Under the pieces are notes generated by a model. That model was not told where the DNA came from, ran no database searches, and saw only the letters and a program-made list of their open reading frames with translations. The position numbers and the translations under genes were made by a program. A DNA stretch of 64,000 bases from Gemmataceae bacterium (GTDB lineage: Bacteria; Planctomycetota; Planctomycetia; Gemmatales; Gemmataceae): positions 1-64,000 of the forward strand of contig SIAJ01000010.1 of the NCBI GenBank assembly GCA_009691845.1, in the 5' to 3' direction. Positions 3,380 to 39,910 of this stretch are shown here, piece after piece (the stretch's first letter is position 1; every line of letters begins with the position of its first letter).

Positions 3380-3428
3380 ATCCGATCGGACTCGCTTGTC
3401 CCGGAGTTCGCCTCGGTCCTTTTCTGTG

Positions 3429-3456
3429 TGGTCCGATAATGTCTGTTATGTTAAAT
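3429..3456 (+). other. dif-like: dif-like XerC/XerD recombination site (28 bp), plus orientation
   Basis: TGGTCCGATAA-TGTCTG-TTATGTTAAAT; XerD arm identical to E. coli dif. Confidence 0.6.
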
Positions 3457-3540
3457 TAGTGATTGCTTCATGCAAACGGCGTTTTGGCCGTGTTTTATGG
3501 GAGTTTTTGCAATTACTTGGCCTTTAGAAATGCGGGCAAA

Positions 3541-4527
3541 TCAAGACGATTTTCCGCCGCTGGCCTCTCGCGGTTCCAGGAACACGCCCATCTTTCGGAA
3601 CTTGTTGTAACGCTCGTCGAGCAGGCGATCGAGCTTCTTTGTTTTGAGTTCGCGGATCGACCGGAGCAGATAGGATTTCAAGGTCGTGCCCATCTCGCGA
3701 GGCTCGCGATGAGCACCGCCGAGCGGCTCGTGAAGTACGTCGTCAATAACGCCCAGCGATGCCAGGTGCTTGGAAGTCAATCGCAGCGCCTCGGCCGCCC
3801 GGGGCTTCGTTTCCTCGTTGGCGACTTTCCACAGGATGCCCGCGCATCCCTCGGGAGAGATTACCGAATAGTAGGCGTGTTCAAGGACTGCAATTCGATC
3901 TCCGACTCCAATGCCCAATGCCCCGCCGGATCCCCCCTCCCCGATCACAACACAAACGATTGGCGTCGGTAGCCGCGACATCTCCAGGATGCTGGTCGCG
4001 ATGAGTTGAGCCTGGCCCCGCTCCTCGGCTCCGATACCCGGAAACGCACCAGGGGTGTCGATCAGGCAGATGATTGGCAAGTGAAATTTGGCCGCCAGCT
4101 TCATCTTGTTCAGTGCCTTGCGATAACCCTCGGGATGGGCGCAACCGTAATAACACGCCTGGCGTTCTTTCAGGGTGTGGCCTTTTTGATGACCGACGAG
4201 AAGGACCTTCGAGTTCCCCAAACGAGCGAAGCCGCAACGGATGGCCTGGTCGTCCCCAAATGCCCGATCGCCGCGCAGTTCGACGAACTCCTCGAAGATC
4301 ATCGAAACGTAATCCATTGTTTGCGGGCGCTCTGGATGCCGGGAGACCAGAACCGTCTGCCACGGCGTGAGAGACGAGTAGGTCTTTTTCAACAACCCGG
4401 AGAGTTCGCGGCGGATGCGTTTGATCTCTTCGCTCATATTCGCAGTCGCGCTCGCCCCCTGCTCTAAACGCTTGAGAACGTCTTCGAGGGCGTGGATTTC
4501 GGTTTCAAACGGCAACGGTGCTGCCAT
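3541..4527 (-). CDS. accA: Acetyl-CoA carboxylase carboxyltransferase subunit alpha
   Basis: Full-length AccA-like sequence: YVSMIFEEFVELRGDRAFGDDQAIRCGFARL, LPIICLIDTPGAFPGIGAEERGQAQLIATSI, VIGEGGSGGALGIGVGDRIAVLEHAYYSVISPEGCAGILWK. Confidence 0.97.
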   Translation of the reverse strand: MAAPLPFETEIHALEDVLKRLEQGASATANMSEEIKRIRRELSGLLKKTYSSLTPWQTVLVSRHPERPQTMDYVSMIFEEFVELRGDRAFGDDQAIRCGFARLGNSKVLLVGHQKGHTLKERQACYYGCAHPEGYRKALNKMKLAAKFHLPIICLIDTPGAFPGIGAEERGQAQLIATSILEMSRLPTPIVCVVIGEGGSGGALGIGVGDRIAVLEHAYYSVISPEGCAGILWKVANEETKPRAAEALRLTSKHLASLGVIDDVLHEPLGGAHREPREMGTTLKSYLLRSIRELKTKKLDRLLDERYNKFRKMGVFLEPREASGGKSS

Positions 4528-4550
4528 CGATCCTCTCCGCTGACAATTGG

Positions 4551-5426
4551 CTACATCATTCCGCCGGTTTCATCCACTGGATCCGGGTCGCTCTTGAACA
4601 CTTTCATCTTCCGCATGGCAATCAGCACATCGTGACACGATGACGGTCGATCGTCAGGTTTTTTGGCGAGCATTCTCAGAATCAATGCCGACAGTTCGTC
4701 AGTCACATCCTTGTTGTGGGTTTGCGGGCTCAATGGCTTCTCCGCAATCTGCTTGTTATACAGATCGGTGATCGTGTTACCCCGAAAGGGCGGGCGACCA
4801 GTCGTTAGTTCGTAGTAAGTGCAACCCAGACCATAGATGTCCGCACGGGCGTCGAGCGGTTTCTTGTTAATCTGTTCGGGCGCCATGTAGCTCGCCGTCC
4901 CCTGGGCCTTGCTCTGCCGGTAGAACATTTTCCAAACGCCCTTCGGAATCTTCCGCGTGATGGCGAAATCAATCCACTTCAGGTTTCCCGAGGCATTCAC
5001 GAGCATATTGTCCGGCTTCACGTCGCAATGGACCCAACCTTTCGCGTTCATGTAGGCGAGACCGGTCGCGGCCTGTTTGAATATCTTCATCGCGTGTTCT
5101 TTGATGAAAGCGAAATCCTTGCCCATAATCCGGTTCCGCATCGAGCCGGAGGGAAAGAACTCCATGATGAAATGCGGCGAATGCTTGTCCCGGTCGATCT
5201 TCAGGATGTGAATGACGTTCTCGTGCCGCAGTTTCGTGCCGACTTCGGCTTCGTGGAATAGGTTGTTGCGGACGTCTCCCTTCTCCGCGGCCTCTGGAAG
5301 CAGGATCTTCATCGCGAAGTGCCGGTTCGAGTGTGGCTCGACCACTTCGAAGACCTGCGAGACTTGCCCGGTTTGCAAGAGCGAGCGGAGTCGGTAACCG
5401 CCGATCAACTCATTCACTTCGGGCAT
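4551..5426 (-). CDS. Serine/threonine protein kinase-like protein
   Basis: Kinase fold: FAMKILLPEA, HCDVKPDNMLVN catalytic loop, WIDFAITRK in place of DFG, GTASYMAPEQI, DARADIYGLGCTYYELTTGRPPF. Confidence 0.93.
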   Translation of the reverse strand: MPEVNELIGGYRLRSLLQTGQVSQVFEVVEPHSNRHFAMKILLPEAAEKGDVRNNLFHEAEVGTKLRHENVIHILKIDRDKHSPHFIMEFFPSGSMRNRIMGKDFAFIKEHAMKIFKQAATGLAYMNAKGWVHCDVKPDNMLVNASGNLKWIDFAITRKIPKGVWKMFYRQSKAQGTASYMAPEQINKKPLDARADIYGLGCTYYELTTGRPPFRGNTITDLYNKQIAEKPLSPQTHNKDVTDELSALILRMLAKKPDDRPSSCHDVLIAMRKMKVFKSDPDPVDETGGMM

Positions 5427-36508: not shown

Positions 36509-36775
36509 GGTTGCTCCTTGAATTGAGATGCGGAGATGTTGATGCGGATCATACACGCCGCATCGTCCGTAGGGAACACAAAAAAGCCGATCGTGTCGAA
36601 ATCGCGACCCGTTGCATTGTTGCCGATGGGACGGCCCTCTTCAACCGTGTTCCGATCTGCTGTCACTGTATCGCGCCTGTAACAGCGATCGACATTAGGC
36701 ATTCCGTCCAGCAATCGCGACGTTATAGTGAACAACATTCAGATCGGCGGGACCGATTTCATCAGGAGAATTGCC

Positions 36776-37759
36776 ATGAACCACTTTGGACGAGGGCTTG
36801 CTGTCGTAGTTGCGACCGGCCTGTGCCTGGGCGGACTAGCCGCTGGTGAGCCGCCGAAGGTGCCCACCGGAAAAGAACCGACGTGCGGAGAATACGGCAC
36901 TTCGGTGCATTTCGAGGACTCGCCGGCCGACGCGGCCAGGCAGGCAAAGAAGGGCGAAAAACTCGTAATGGTCCTCCACGTGTCGGGTCATTTCGAAGAT
37001 CCGAGGTTTACCTGAAACAATGCCGAGGCGCTCCGTGTGAACGCCCTAGCCAATCCCGAAGTGGGCAAGTTCGTGAACGAACATTTCAGTTCGTCGTTCC
37101 AGAAAGTCGCCACATTCAAGATTGTTGGAAACGCCAAGCAGGGCGGAAATGTCGCCACCTATTTTTGTGCGCCCGATGGCCGGGTGCTTCACACGATTGC
37201 AGGCCCGGTCGATGCGGCTGCATTCCTGGTTGAAGCCAAGTGGGTTGTCGAAACGACGCGGAAAGCGATGAAGGAAGCAGGCTCCGACGGAGGCAAGTTC
37301 AAGGCCTATTTCCGCACGGCCCACGCCCAACGGCTACGCGACGAATTTGGTCTGACGGTCGACGCGGTGACATTCGATCCGCCAGAAGCACAGGACGAAA
37401 AGGATGCCCTCACGTACCGCGATCCATCCGGCCAGCCACTCGCCCCCAGACTTCCACCGCCTCCTCTGAATGGGCCTGACGTTAGCCTGGCGAAAAAAGA
37501 ACTCGATCGCCGCCAGCTGAATGCAGCCAACTCGCCGGGTGCCGGCGGGGTCGCCGACGCCAAGGGCCGAAGGTGGGTTTTGCCAAACCAGGGCAAGGTT
37601 CATCAGATCCTGGCAGGCCACGCGATGGTGAAGATCGAACGTGTCTACGGCACGGTGTTCGAAAATATTCTTGGCGAAAAAATTTCCACGAAGCCAGTTG
37701 AGGTGGATCGCCCGTTCTCCTGGGTGGAGAAGGATGGCAATCGACGCGTTGCGAAGTAA
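36776..37759 (+). CDS. Exported thioredoxin-fold-like protein interrupted by one in-frame TGA at codon 80
   Basis: AGGAG + ATG 36776, signal MNHFGRGLAVVVATGLCLGGLAAGEPP; ...KKGEKLVMVLHVSGHFEDPRFT-[TGA 37013-37015]-NNAEALRVNALANPEVGKFVNEHFSSSFQKVATFKIVGNAKQGGNVATYFCAPDGRVLHTIAGPVDAAAFLVEAKWVV... Both supplied ORFs (36728-37015, 37037-37759) are in the same frame. Confidence 0.7.
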
Positions 37760-37785
37760 CTTCCGACAAAAGTCGATTTTCCGTC

Positions 37786-37841
37786 GGAGCCGCGCCCGTA
37801 AGGGAGCGATTTCGCTGGGTCGCTCTTACGGTCGCGGCTCC
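37786..37841. repeat. Palindromic element (family B)
   Basis: ggagccgcgcccgtaagggagcga (37786-37809) / tcgctcttacggtcgcggctcc (37820-37841). Confidence 0.85.
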
Positions 37842-37892
37842 GAAAGACTTTTGTAGAAAGCGTCAACTTGAGTCAAACTTGAAAAACCGCAG

Positions 37893-37923
37893 ACCTCCGG
37901 GACACATTCCCGGAGGTTTTTTT
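37893..37923 (+). terminator. Rho-independent terminator
   Basis: acctccggga-cacat-tcccggaggt followed by a T-run. Confidence 0.92.
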
Positions 37924-38089
37924 GCGTCCGCATCAACGGGGTAATTTGGAAAACTTTGCCGAGGATGACGGGGAGGGGCTGGTAAGCCTGACAATTGTCG
38001 CAATTCGGAAGGTTCGGGGAAGCATCGCTATGCCGATAGGCCCGTCGAGATGCATTTTACCTGGGTGAAATCGCGCACGGAATATCGTC

Positions 38090-39910
38090 TTGCGTTGGAA
38101 TGCACCGAAAGTAGCTTGGACACTGTTGGCCACTCTCGCCTCGAGCGGGCTGTCGGTTGCGGATGAATCCTTCACGTTGCCAAGCACCACGCTAACGGTG
38201 CCGAAGCCAACCTCGCCGTACTTCCGCGACTACACGAATACGACCAATCAGTTCGTGGAGGGAGTCTTTCGGACTGCGGCCGACTTGGAGCCGAAAAAAA
38301 TCCCCCCGACAAAACTGGAAGCCCTAACGCTGCCGGTAGTACCTGGTCCTGCGCTGGGCCCGACGGAATCCGGTCCGTTGCCTCGCGTCATCGCATCACC
38401 CGACTCGATCATTCCGGGAATCGTTGTTGAGAAAACGTTTGCCAACCCCTGGGCCGACATTCCGCGATCGCAACTCATCCCTAGAGCGGGCACGTTTTTG
38501 ATCCCAGGAAAAGGGCCGGGCACTTACTCGTTCCTCGATTTTATCACGAACAATTATCGCGAGAAACCGCCAGTTTTTCCGTATCCGCCGTTTGCATTGC
38601 AGACACCAAGTGGGTTTGACGCGGACTATCGCTATTTGGATAAGCCCGACAATACGCAAACGGATCCGTTGGACGCGATCAAGCGAATGCATCTCACGCC
38701 AGATATCATGGTGACCATCGGCGGTCAGAGTTCCGTCCGGTACATGCACGAAGTCGATTCCAGGCTGGCCAGCGGTGTCAACGAGTATTCGCTTTATCGC
38801 AACCGAGTTTGGGTGGATGCGTGGTATACGGAGCAGTTCCGCGTCGTCAGCGAGTTCATCAGTGCCCTGGCTTACGGGAATGAGAAAGAACTGTTGCCGA
38901 TCGACAAGAACACCGCGGCGATTCAAAACCTCTTTGTCGATGTGAACGTCGGGACCTACGGAGGCAACCTCGCATACGTTCGAGTTGGTCGCCAGGAATT
39001 GTTGTTTGGTTCGCAGCGACTCATTTCGACCGCCGACTGGGCAAATACACGCCGAACGTTCGAAGGCGTTCGCGGCTTCTGGCGATCCACCTCGATGGAC
39101 TTCGACGTTTTCTGCGTGATCCCCGTCATTCCTGATACCACCAAGCAGGACGACGTCGACCGCGACATCAAGTTCCTGGGAGCTTGGGCGACATTCCGTC
39201 CCGTAAACCAGGTGGTGGACGTGTATTATCTCGGCTTGCAGGACGATACGTTGACCGGCGACCGCTACGTTACGACAGCACCCAAGGGGAAGCGAGACAT
39301 TCACACGTTTGGCGCTCGCTATGCCGGCAACGAAGGACCGTTTCTGTTCGACATCGAGGGCATGGTTCAGGGCGGCACGGCCGTCGACCGCAACGTAGAG
39401 GCCCACGCCTACACGCTGTCCGCCGGCTACGAGTTGCAAGAGCACGCCTGGCGTCCACAATTCTGGCTCGGCTACGATTACGCGAGCGGCACGGGCGACC
39501 CGACGCTGGGGGCGAAAGATCGGACCTTCAACCAGCTCTTCGCGTTCGGCCACTATTATTTCGGCTACCTCGATTTGGTTGGCCGACAGAACATACAGGA
39601 CTGCTACGGGCAAGTTGCACTGTACCCGCACAATTGGATTACGGTTTTGGCCCAGTACCATCACTTCCGCCTCGCGAAGTCGCGCGACTTCCTCTACAAC
39701 GCGGCTGGCAAGCCGACGCGACGATCGGCCACGGGAGCCGCAGGCCAGGACGTTGGGCAGGAAATCGACCTGTTGGCGAACATCCACCTGACTCCGCACC
39801 AGGATGTGCTGATTGGCTACTCGAAGCTTTTCGCGGGCGACTTCATCAAAAACACGGGAGCGAAAGTTTCACCAGAACTGCTTTACGTGATGTACAATCT
39901 CCGGTGGTGA
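38090..39910 (+). CDS. Alginate-export-family-like outer membrane beta-barrel protein
   Basis: Signal-like N-terminus (TTG start, uncertain); NEYSLYRNRVWVDAWYTEQFRVVSEFISAL, VRVGRQELLFGSQRLISTADWANTRRTFEGVRGFWR, C-terminal DVLIGYSKLFAGDFIKNTG...LLYVMYNLRW. Confidence 0.85.
   Translation: MRWNAPKVAWTLLATLASSGLSVADESFTLPSTTLTVPKPTSPYFRDYTNTTNQFVEGVFRTAADLEPKKIPPTKLEALTLPVVPGPALGPTESGPLPRVIASPDSIIPGIVVEKTFANPWADIPRSQLIPRAGTFLIPGKGPGTYSFLDFITNNYREKPPVFPYPPFALQTPSGFDADYRYLDKPDNTQTDPLDAIKRMHLTPDIMVTIGGQSSVRYMHEVDSRLASGVNEYSLYRNRVWVDAWYTEQFRVVSEFISALAYGNEKELLPIDKNTAAIQNLFVDVNVGTYGGNLAYVRVGRQELLFGSQRLISTADWANTRRTFEGVRGFWRSTSMDFDVFCVIPVIPDTTKQDDVDRDIKFLGAWATFRPVNQVVDVYYLGLQDDTLTGDRYVTTAPKGKRDIHTFGARYAGNEGPFLFDIEGMVQGGTAVDRNVEAHAYTLSAGYELQEHAWRPQFWLGYDYASGTGDPTLGAKDRTFNQLFAFGHYYFGYLDLVGRQNIQDCYGQVALYPHNWITVLAQYHHFRLAKSRDFLYNAAGKPTRRSATGAAGQDVGQEIDLLANIHLTPHQDVLIGYSKLFAGDFIKNTGAKVSPELLYVMYNLRW

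Follow-up and report, generated by a model that had tools for sequence, protein, structure and literature searches.

An apparently unnamed planctomycete protein family with a conserved in-frame TGA, a predicted thioredoxin fold and a SECIS-like hairpin

Several families with a thioredoxin fold are the closest described systems to the protein considered here. Thioredoxin_7 (PF13899) and the DsbH / DsbD-gamma / AGR2 fold group have CxxC active sites. Among families with selenocysteine (Sec), the VPGUxxT family (NF041383) is thioredoxin-like, while the Trx7/PDZ domain-containing (seleno)protein family (NF041199), a Thioredoxin_7-like selenoprotein listed in PMC13188914, has a CxxU motif and a PDZ domain. 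The GPX-like and Prx-like bacterial selenoproteins (UxxT, TxxU, UxxC) carry one reactive Sec in a thioredoxin fold. Sec machinery has been reported in the Planctomycetes, including G. obscuriglobus (PMC4807772). The discovery of prokaryotic selenoproteins leans largely on Cys homologs. The authors of PMC12013277 state that such homologs now seem to exist for all known selenoproteins, and that their own method may miss selenoproteins without them.

The locus studied here lies in a Gemmataceae genome (assembly GCA_009691845.1), in the first 64,000 nucleotides of contig SIAJ01000010.1, a stretch that was analysed as a whole and is called the window below. The frame from 36776 to 37759 is open over 327 codons and is interrupted once, by a TGA at 37013-37015, which is codon 80. 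An earlier note, made from the sequence alone, had described one protein with a Shine-Dalgarno sequence, a signal peptide and a terminator, broken only by this TGA, and that description held; of the two explanations it had left standing, selenocysteine is now strongly supported and a recent nonsense mutation is refuted. The features are as follows.

36776-37759, + strand: coding sequence of a predicted 327-residue exported thioredoxin-like selenoprotein, read through the TGA at codon 80; stop codon TAA at 37757-37759
36764-36769, + strand: Shine-Dalgarno sequence AGGAGA, read from sequence
36776-36847, + strand: probable Sec signal peptide, residues 1-24, read from sequence; AlphaFold2 confidence is low here
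36896-37279, + strand: thioredoxin-fold domain, about residues 41-168, from AlphaFold2, Foldseek and the superfamily alignment
37013-37015, + strand: codon 80 (TGA), predicted to encode selenocysteine within the motif U-N-N-A, where helix 81-88 begins; all near homologs have TGA here, and the helix comes from DSSP of the model
37027-37045, + strand: predicted bacterial SECIS hairpin (GGCGCUC 37027-37033, loop CGUGU 37034-37038, GAACGCC 37039-37045), from conservation, covariation and folding
37891-37919, + strand: intrinsic terminator

The upstream AGGAGA and the hydrophobic N-terminus, MNHFGRGLAVVVATGLCLGGLAAG, which resembles a Sec signal peptide as read from the sequence, agree with an expressed and exported gene, an inference from sequence. 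We found no conserved partner of the gene in its neighbourhood, and the neighbours indicate no substrate. The downstream gene of the window (38090-39910) encodes an outer-membrane protein of the alginate-export family (PF13372, E 3e-91). Eight other loci, but not the window, have a serpin-type gene immediately upstream in the same orientation; the one at 3428-4768 of locus L086 matches PF00079 with E 2.6e-111. Positions 37766-37855 of the window form a long near-perfect palindrome, which represents one copy of a REP-like repeat interspersed in the genome, and the fold of 37760-37935 has a z-score of -7.1. The 24-nt core of the palindrome has 97 copies in the genome (at most 2 mismatches) and none in a reversed control, and the copies often stand as inverted pairs 30-70 bp apart.

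No match for the window protein was found in Pfam or NCBIfam (June 2026), and all of the relatives tried fell below the cut-offs. Like Thioredoxin_7, the protein has a thioredoxin fold as predicted by the model, and its predicted fold is also like that of the DsbH group (Foldseek matches to 2ju5, 1vrs and 9i3u), but it has no Pfam match to PF13899 at E values up to 10, so the gathering threshold is unmet, and its relatives score at best 23.3 against a gathering score of 27. Compared with this group, UxxA replaces CxxC and a C-terminal portion of about 150 residues is added. The protein resembles the VPGUxxT family in being thioredoxin-like and predicted to contain Sec, and the first 60 or so positions of NF041383 are faintly similar to relatives in other subfamilies; however, the window protein does not match, there is no VPGUxxT motif, its relatives reach 12-16 bits where the cut-off is 275, and nothing in the window genome passes that cut-off. 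Unlike NF041199, the window family has neither CxxU nor a PDZ domain; the window protein has no match to that model over cut-off, and its relatives score 11 bits at most where 300 are required. The GPX-like and Prx-like selenoproteins share the fold and the single Sec, and by analogy may serve as a model for a Sec working without an adjacent resolving Cys, but they have no sequence match to the window protein in Pfam, NCBIfam or the PDB. The catalytic tetrad of GPX differs from the pattern of Sec, Arg(+7) and Asn in the window family.

No such motif was found, within the portion searched, in the list of 119 prokaryotic selenoprotein families (PMC13188914, 2026), and PMC4807772 was the only source on planctomycete Sec genes in the literature searched. 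The supplementary candidates of that paper and a groundwater survey cited in PMC13188914 lie outside our search, so novelty here means that the family was not found, not that it is proven absent. Within the libraries and literature searched, it appears to be unnamed.

Near homologs were sought in 59 genomes (the window genome and its relatives), 21 of which gave matches. The window gene and 23 near homologs all have TGA at the same codon (24/24), in the context FTUNNAEALRVNALA or a close variant, and the long matches hold one TGA each. These homologs come from many separately sequenced genera and are 36-71% identical. A scan across GTDB, with one genome per species (85,488 species genomes), gave 60 loci, every one with TGA at codon 80 and every one titled Planctomycetota or one of its sub-groups. 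The two sets overlap, some loci being the same records; pooled, they give 84 sites, with TGA at 84/84, and the first 36 nt comprise 42 distinct sequences. The UNNA motif is present in all members of subfamily A, and no Cys version was found among them. In unsaturated comparisons, dS is 1.2-2.5 and dN 0.19-0.35 upstream of the TGA, against dS 1.5-2.3 and dN 0.25-0.29 downstream, and dN/dS is equally low on the two sides; the downstream part is thus under as much purifying selection as the upstream part. In one homolog (L126, contig BPJP01000004.1) the TGA and hairpin are intact but the frame is broken further downstream, through either assembly error or decay.

The 30 nt that follow the TGA are conserved far beyond what the protein requires. 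Among 103 codon columns with a conserved residue, codons 85-88 (GCG CTC CGT GTG) rank 4, 1, 2 and 3 for synonymous constraint, with Leu86 encoded by CTC and Val88 by GTG in 46/46 sequences each, and codon entropy is reduced on average by 0.80 bits in the nine columns after the TGA versus 0.13 in the other 94 (Mann-Whitney p 0.006). These four codons form the upper stem and loop of the hairpin at 37027-37045. In an alignment of 41 distinct sequences (A2), five of the seven pairs (16-32, 17-31, 18-30, 20-28 and 21-27) are formed in every sequence. Pair 18-30 occurs as G-C, A-U, C-G and G-U; at 19-29, 22 rows have a C.A mismatch, 12 have C-G and 7 have U-A. The covariation score of the hairpin, 0.214, was reached by none of 500 shuffles (0.132 +/- 0.011) and exceeds that of every slid version, and RNAalifold recovers the same helix.

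The bacterial SECIS model in PMC13188914 has an apical loop of 3-9 nt with a G within its first two positions, an upper stem of 4-16 bp, a distance of 16-37 nt from UGA to loop, and an MFE of -7.5 kcal/mol or lower. The window hairpin, with a 5-nt loop (CGUGU) and 6-7 pairs including one C.A mismatch, satisfies the loop and stem criteria, and G stands second in all 42 distinct loops (CGUGU, CGGGU, CGUGC, CGUGA, CGUAU). The earlier note had described the stem at 37027-37045 as closing an 11-nt loop with no G at either of its first two positions, and this part failed: the helix extends inward past one C.A mismatch to the 5-nt loop, and the MFE structure agrees. The spacing lies within the stated range as well: the distance from TGA to loop is 18 nt in subfamily A and 23-24 nt in the other subfamilies, so the RNA element has moved between subfamilies relative to a fixed Sec column. 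The 40-nt stretch in the window has an MFE of -7.6 kcal/mol and is no more stable than its shuffles (z -0.01), so the case for the hairpin rests on conservation and covariation. By a strict count, 58 of 108 TGA sites reach -7.5. Downstream of TGA sites the hairpin energy averages -7.6, and synonymous recodings average -3.6; the corresponding values for TGC sites are -2.1 and -2.0, and the Cys members are without the hairpin. A search of the region against Rfam gave no match above gathering score, the best being a miRNA model on a repeat palindrome.

The window genome has tRNA-Sec(UCA) (63.6 bits), SelB (379 bits), SelA (559 bits) and SelD (323 bits), and its selD carries a TGA of its own in ASCAGUAGK. 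In a phylum set of 395 Planctomycetota genomes, selA scores over cut-off in 246. It is found in 30 of the 32 genomes in which a TGA homolog was reached through the subfamily profile, versus 283/395 overall (Fisher p 0.0015). No selA match was found in G018, G219 and G240, where TGA homologs are present; all three are draft genomes, and incompleteness may be the reason.

AlphaFold2, run with 53 sequences, gave a model with a mean pLDDT of 84.9, in which a strand spans residues 63-69 and residue 80 stands just before helix 81-88. Foldseek matches are thioredoxin folds (4fyb, 3f9u, DsbH 2ju5, AGR2 9i3u and DsbD-gamma 1vrs), with target-normalised TM-scores of about 0.5-0.7; whole-query TM-scores are low (0.22-0.30) because the match spans the thioredoxin half only. 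A guess in the earlier note that the context is a thioredoxin-like strand-loop-helix thus held, as a model prediction. A profile search of PDB sequences gave no match. The first Cys of the CxxC paralogs in the same genome (L192, L193, L197) aligns with the Sec, while the position of the second Cys is Ala or Gly in the TGA family, leaving no resolving Cys at +3. Cys131 is present in 52/53 rows and Cys37 in 41/53, and it is possible that one of them resolves the selenium, although no distances were measured in the model.

The subfamily profile also reaches distant proteins across the phylum that have TGA at the same place, in motifs such as LDGGLUSAGHSLRAVTLSN, LDEEFTUTNARLARTVLFSN, LDGLTUSAAHAMRTAVL and KTUNNALQLRAGALSN. 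The superfamily alignment retains Gly71, Sec80, Arg87 and Asn125 (window numbering) and two further Gly. Its profile has matches in 231/395 genomes, the weaker ones including ordinary CxxC thioredoxin-like proteins, and in the superfamily scan TGA is confined to one profile position (155 matches). At 130 distinct sites the Sec column holds TGA in 108, Cys in 16 (motif SCANSR) and Ala, Ser or Leu in 6. The window genome itself has at least four more TGA-bearing relatives (L191, L194, L195 and L196) besides the CxxC paralogs, and may be rich in selenoproteins; their motifs are GCTUNNGVSGR, GCUTAGRGGR, GHTUANMDHVR and GVCUSAA. Two weaker paralogs in the relatives search (L035 and L036) have no TGA, with Ala or Ser at the column. 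Ala, Ser or Leu without an in-frame TGA was seen in L035, L036 and L180-L183, possibly redox-dead paralogs, and L035 has a Cys one residue before the Sec column. These six distant relatives suggest that the redox residue is dispensable in some members.

We consider it very likely (probability roughly 0.94) that codon 80 is decoded as Sec in a thioredoxin-fold protein, because the codon is conserved, a covarying hairpin follows it, and the genome holds the whole selenocysteine apparatus; selenium incorporation itself has not been measured. Three checks proposed in the earlier note all favour Sec: in the homolog alignment the near homologs all have TGA, with Cys the main alternative in distant ones; selA, selB, selD and tRNA-Sec are all present in the genome; and the TGA is followed by a covarying, SECIS-like hairpin. 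As inferred from what is known of Sec insertion in bacteria, SelB and Sec-tRNA(Sec) would together bind the mRNA hairpin and insert Sec at codon 80. The product would be an exported protein of predicted thioredoxin fold whose Sec stands at the N-terminal end of the active-site helix, in the place of the first Cys of a CxxC thioredoxin, with Ala in the place of the second. The selenolate would attack a peroxide, a disulfide or a similar oxidised substrate, and either an external thiol or one of the protein's own distant cysteines might regenerate it. A one-selenol oxidoreductase (reductase or peroxidase) of the cell envelope is the function that we favour, inferred from the fold and the position of the residue, but only tentatively, as the odds lie slightly against it.

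From a single genome, a lone in-frame stop in an intact gene is just what would be expected if a recent nonsense mutation or a sequencing error had split an ordinary gene. This explanation is all but excluded, since a private mutation cannot be common to dozens of genera; the TGA is found in every near homolog, purifying selection is equal on its two sides, and the hairpin is conserved. Genome-wide reassignment of TGA was considered separately and rejected, as 19 of the 28 long ORFs in the window end in TGA, which is an ordinary stop here.

Readthrough with some other residue, by a near-cognate tRNA (for Trp, for example) or at a leaky regulated stop, would yield a short and a long form, and a conserved TGA followed by conserved RNA structure is indeed seen at some programmed readthrough sites. 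We regard it as very unlikely, however. Because the stop interrupts the thioredoxin fold immediately ahead of the active-site helix, termination there would leave only a fragment as the short form; CxxC relatives have their catalytic Cys in this column, 16 members carry Cys in it, and those with TGC have lost the hairpin; selA is enriched in the TGA-bearing genomes; and TGA otherwise serves as a stop in the window. The protein might instead be a selenoprotein that is not a redox enzyme, with Sec serving metal binding, selenium delivery or structure. The lack of a resolving Cys at +3 (UNNA, USAG, UTNA) is in keeping with this, and binding could involve Asn125 and Arg87, which are invariant, but the thioredoxin fold and the placement of Sec at the classic nucleophile position speak against it, and selenoproteins of the same fold with one active-site Sec, such as the glutathione peroxidases, are redox enzymes. 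We think this reading unlikely, and retain Sec decoding, with a redox role as the favoured function.

Since every near family member has TGA and none of the model libraries searched contains the gene, gene callers would split it, and pipelines that depend on Cys homologs could skip the family. If the Sec reading is true, one more family would stand beside the 119 listed in PMC13188914, and a use would have been found for the widespread selA genes of the Planctomycetota. The family would also provide, within one fold, naturally occurring variants with Sec, with Cys and perhaps without redox activity, a series in which it could be asked why Sec is kept. There is a bolder reading, which we consider likely as a joint claim: that these proteins form an unnamed thioredoxin-fold selenoprotein superfamily with a UxxA/UxxG active site and several subfamilies across the Planctomycetota, having several paralogs per genome in some members of the phylum, with the Gemmata-lineage subfamily using Sec only. 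Were this true, the Planctomycetota would be an overlooked selenoprotein-rich phylum, whose main family has been missed by pipelines built on Cys/Sec pairs.
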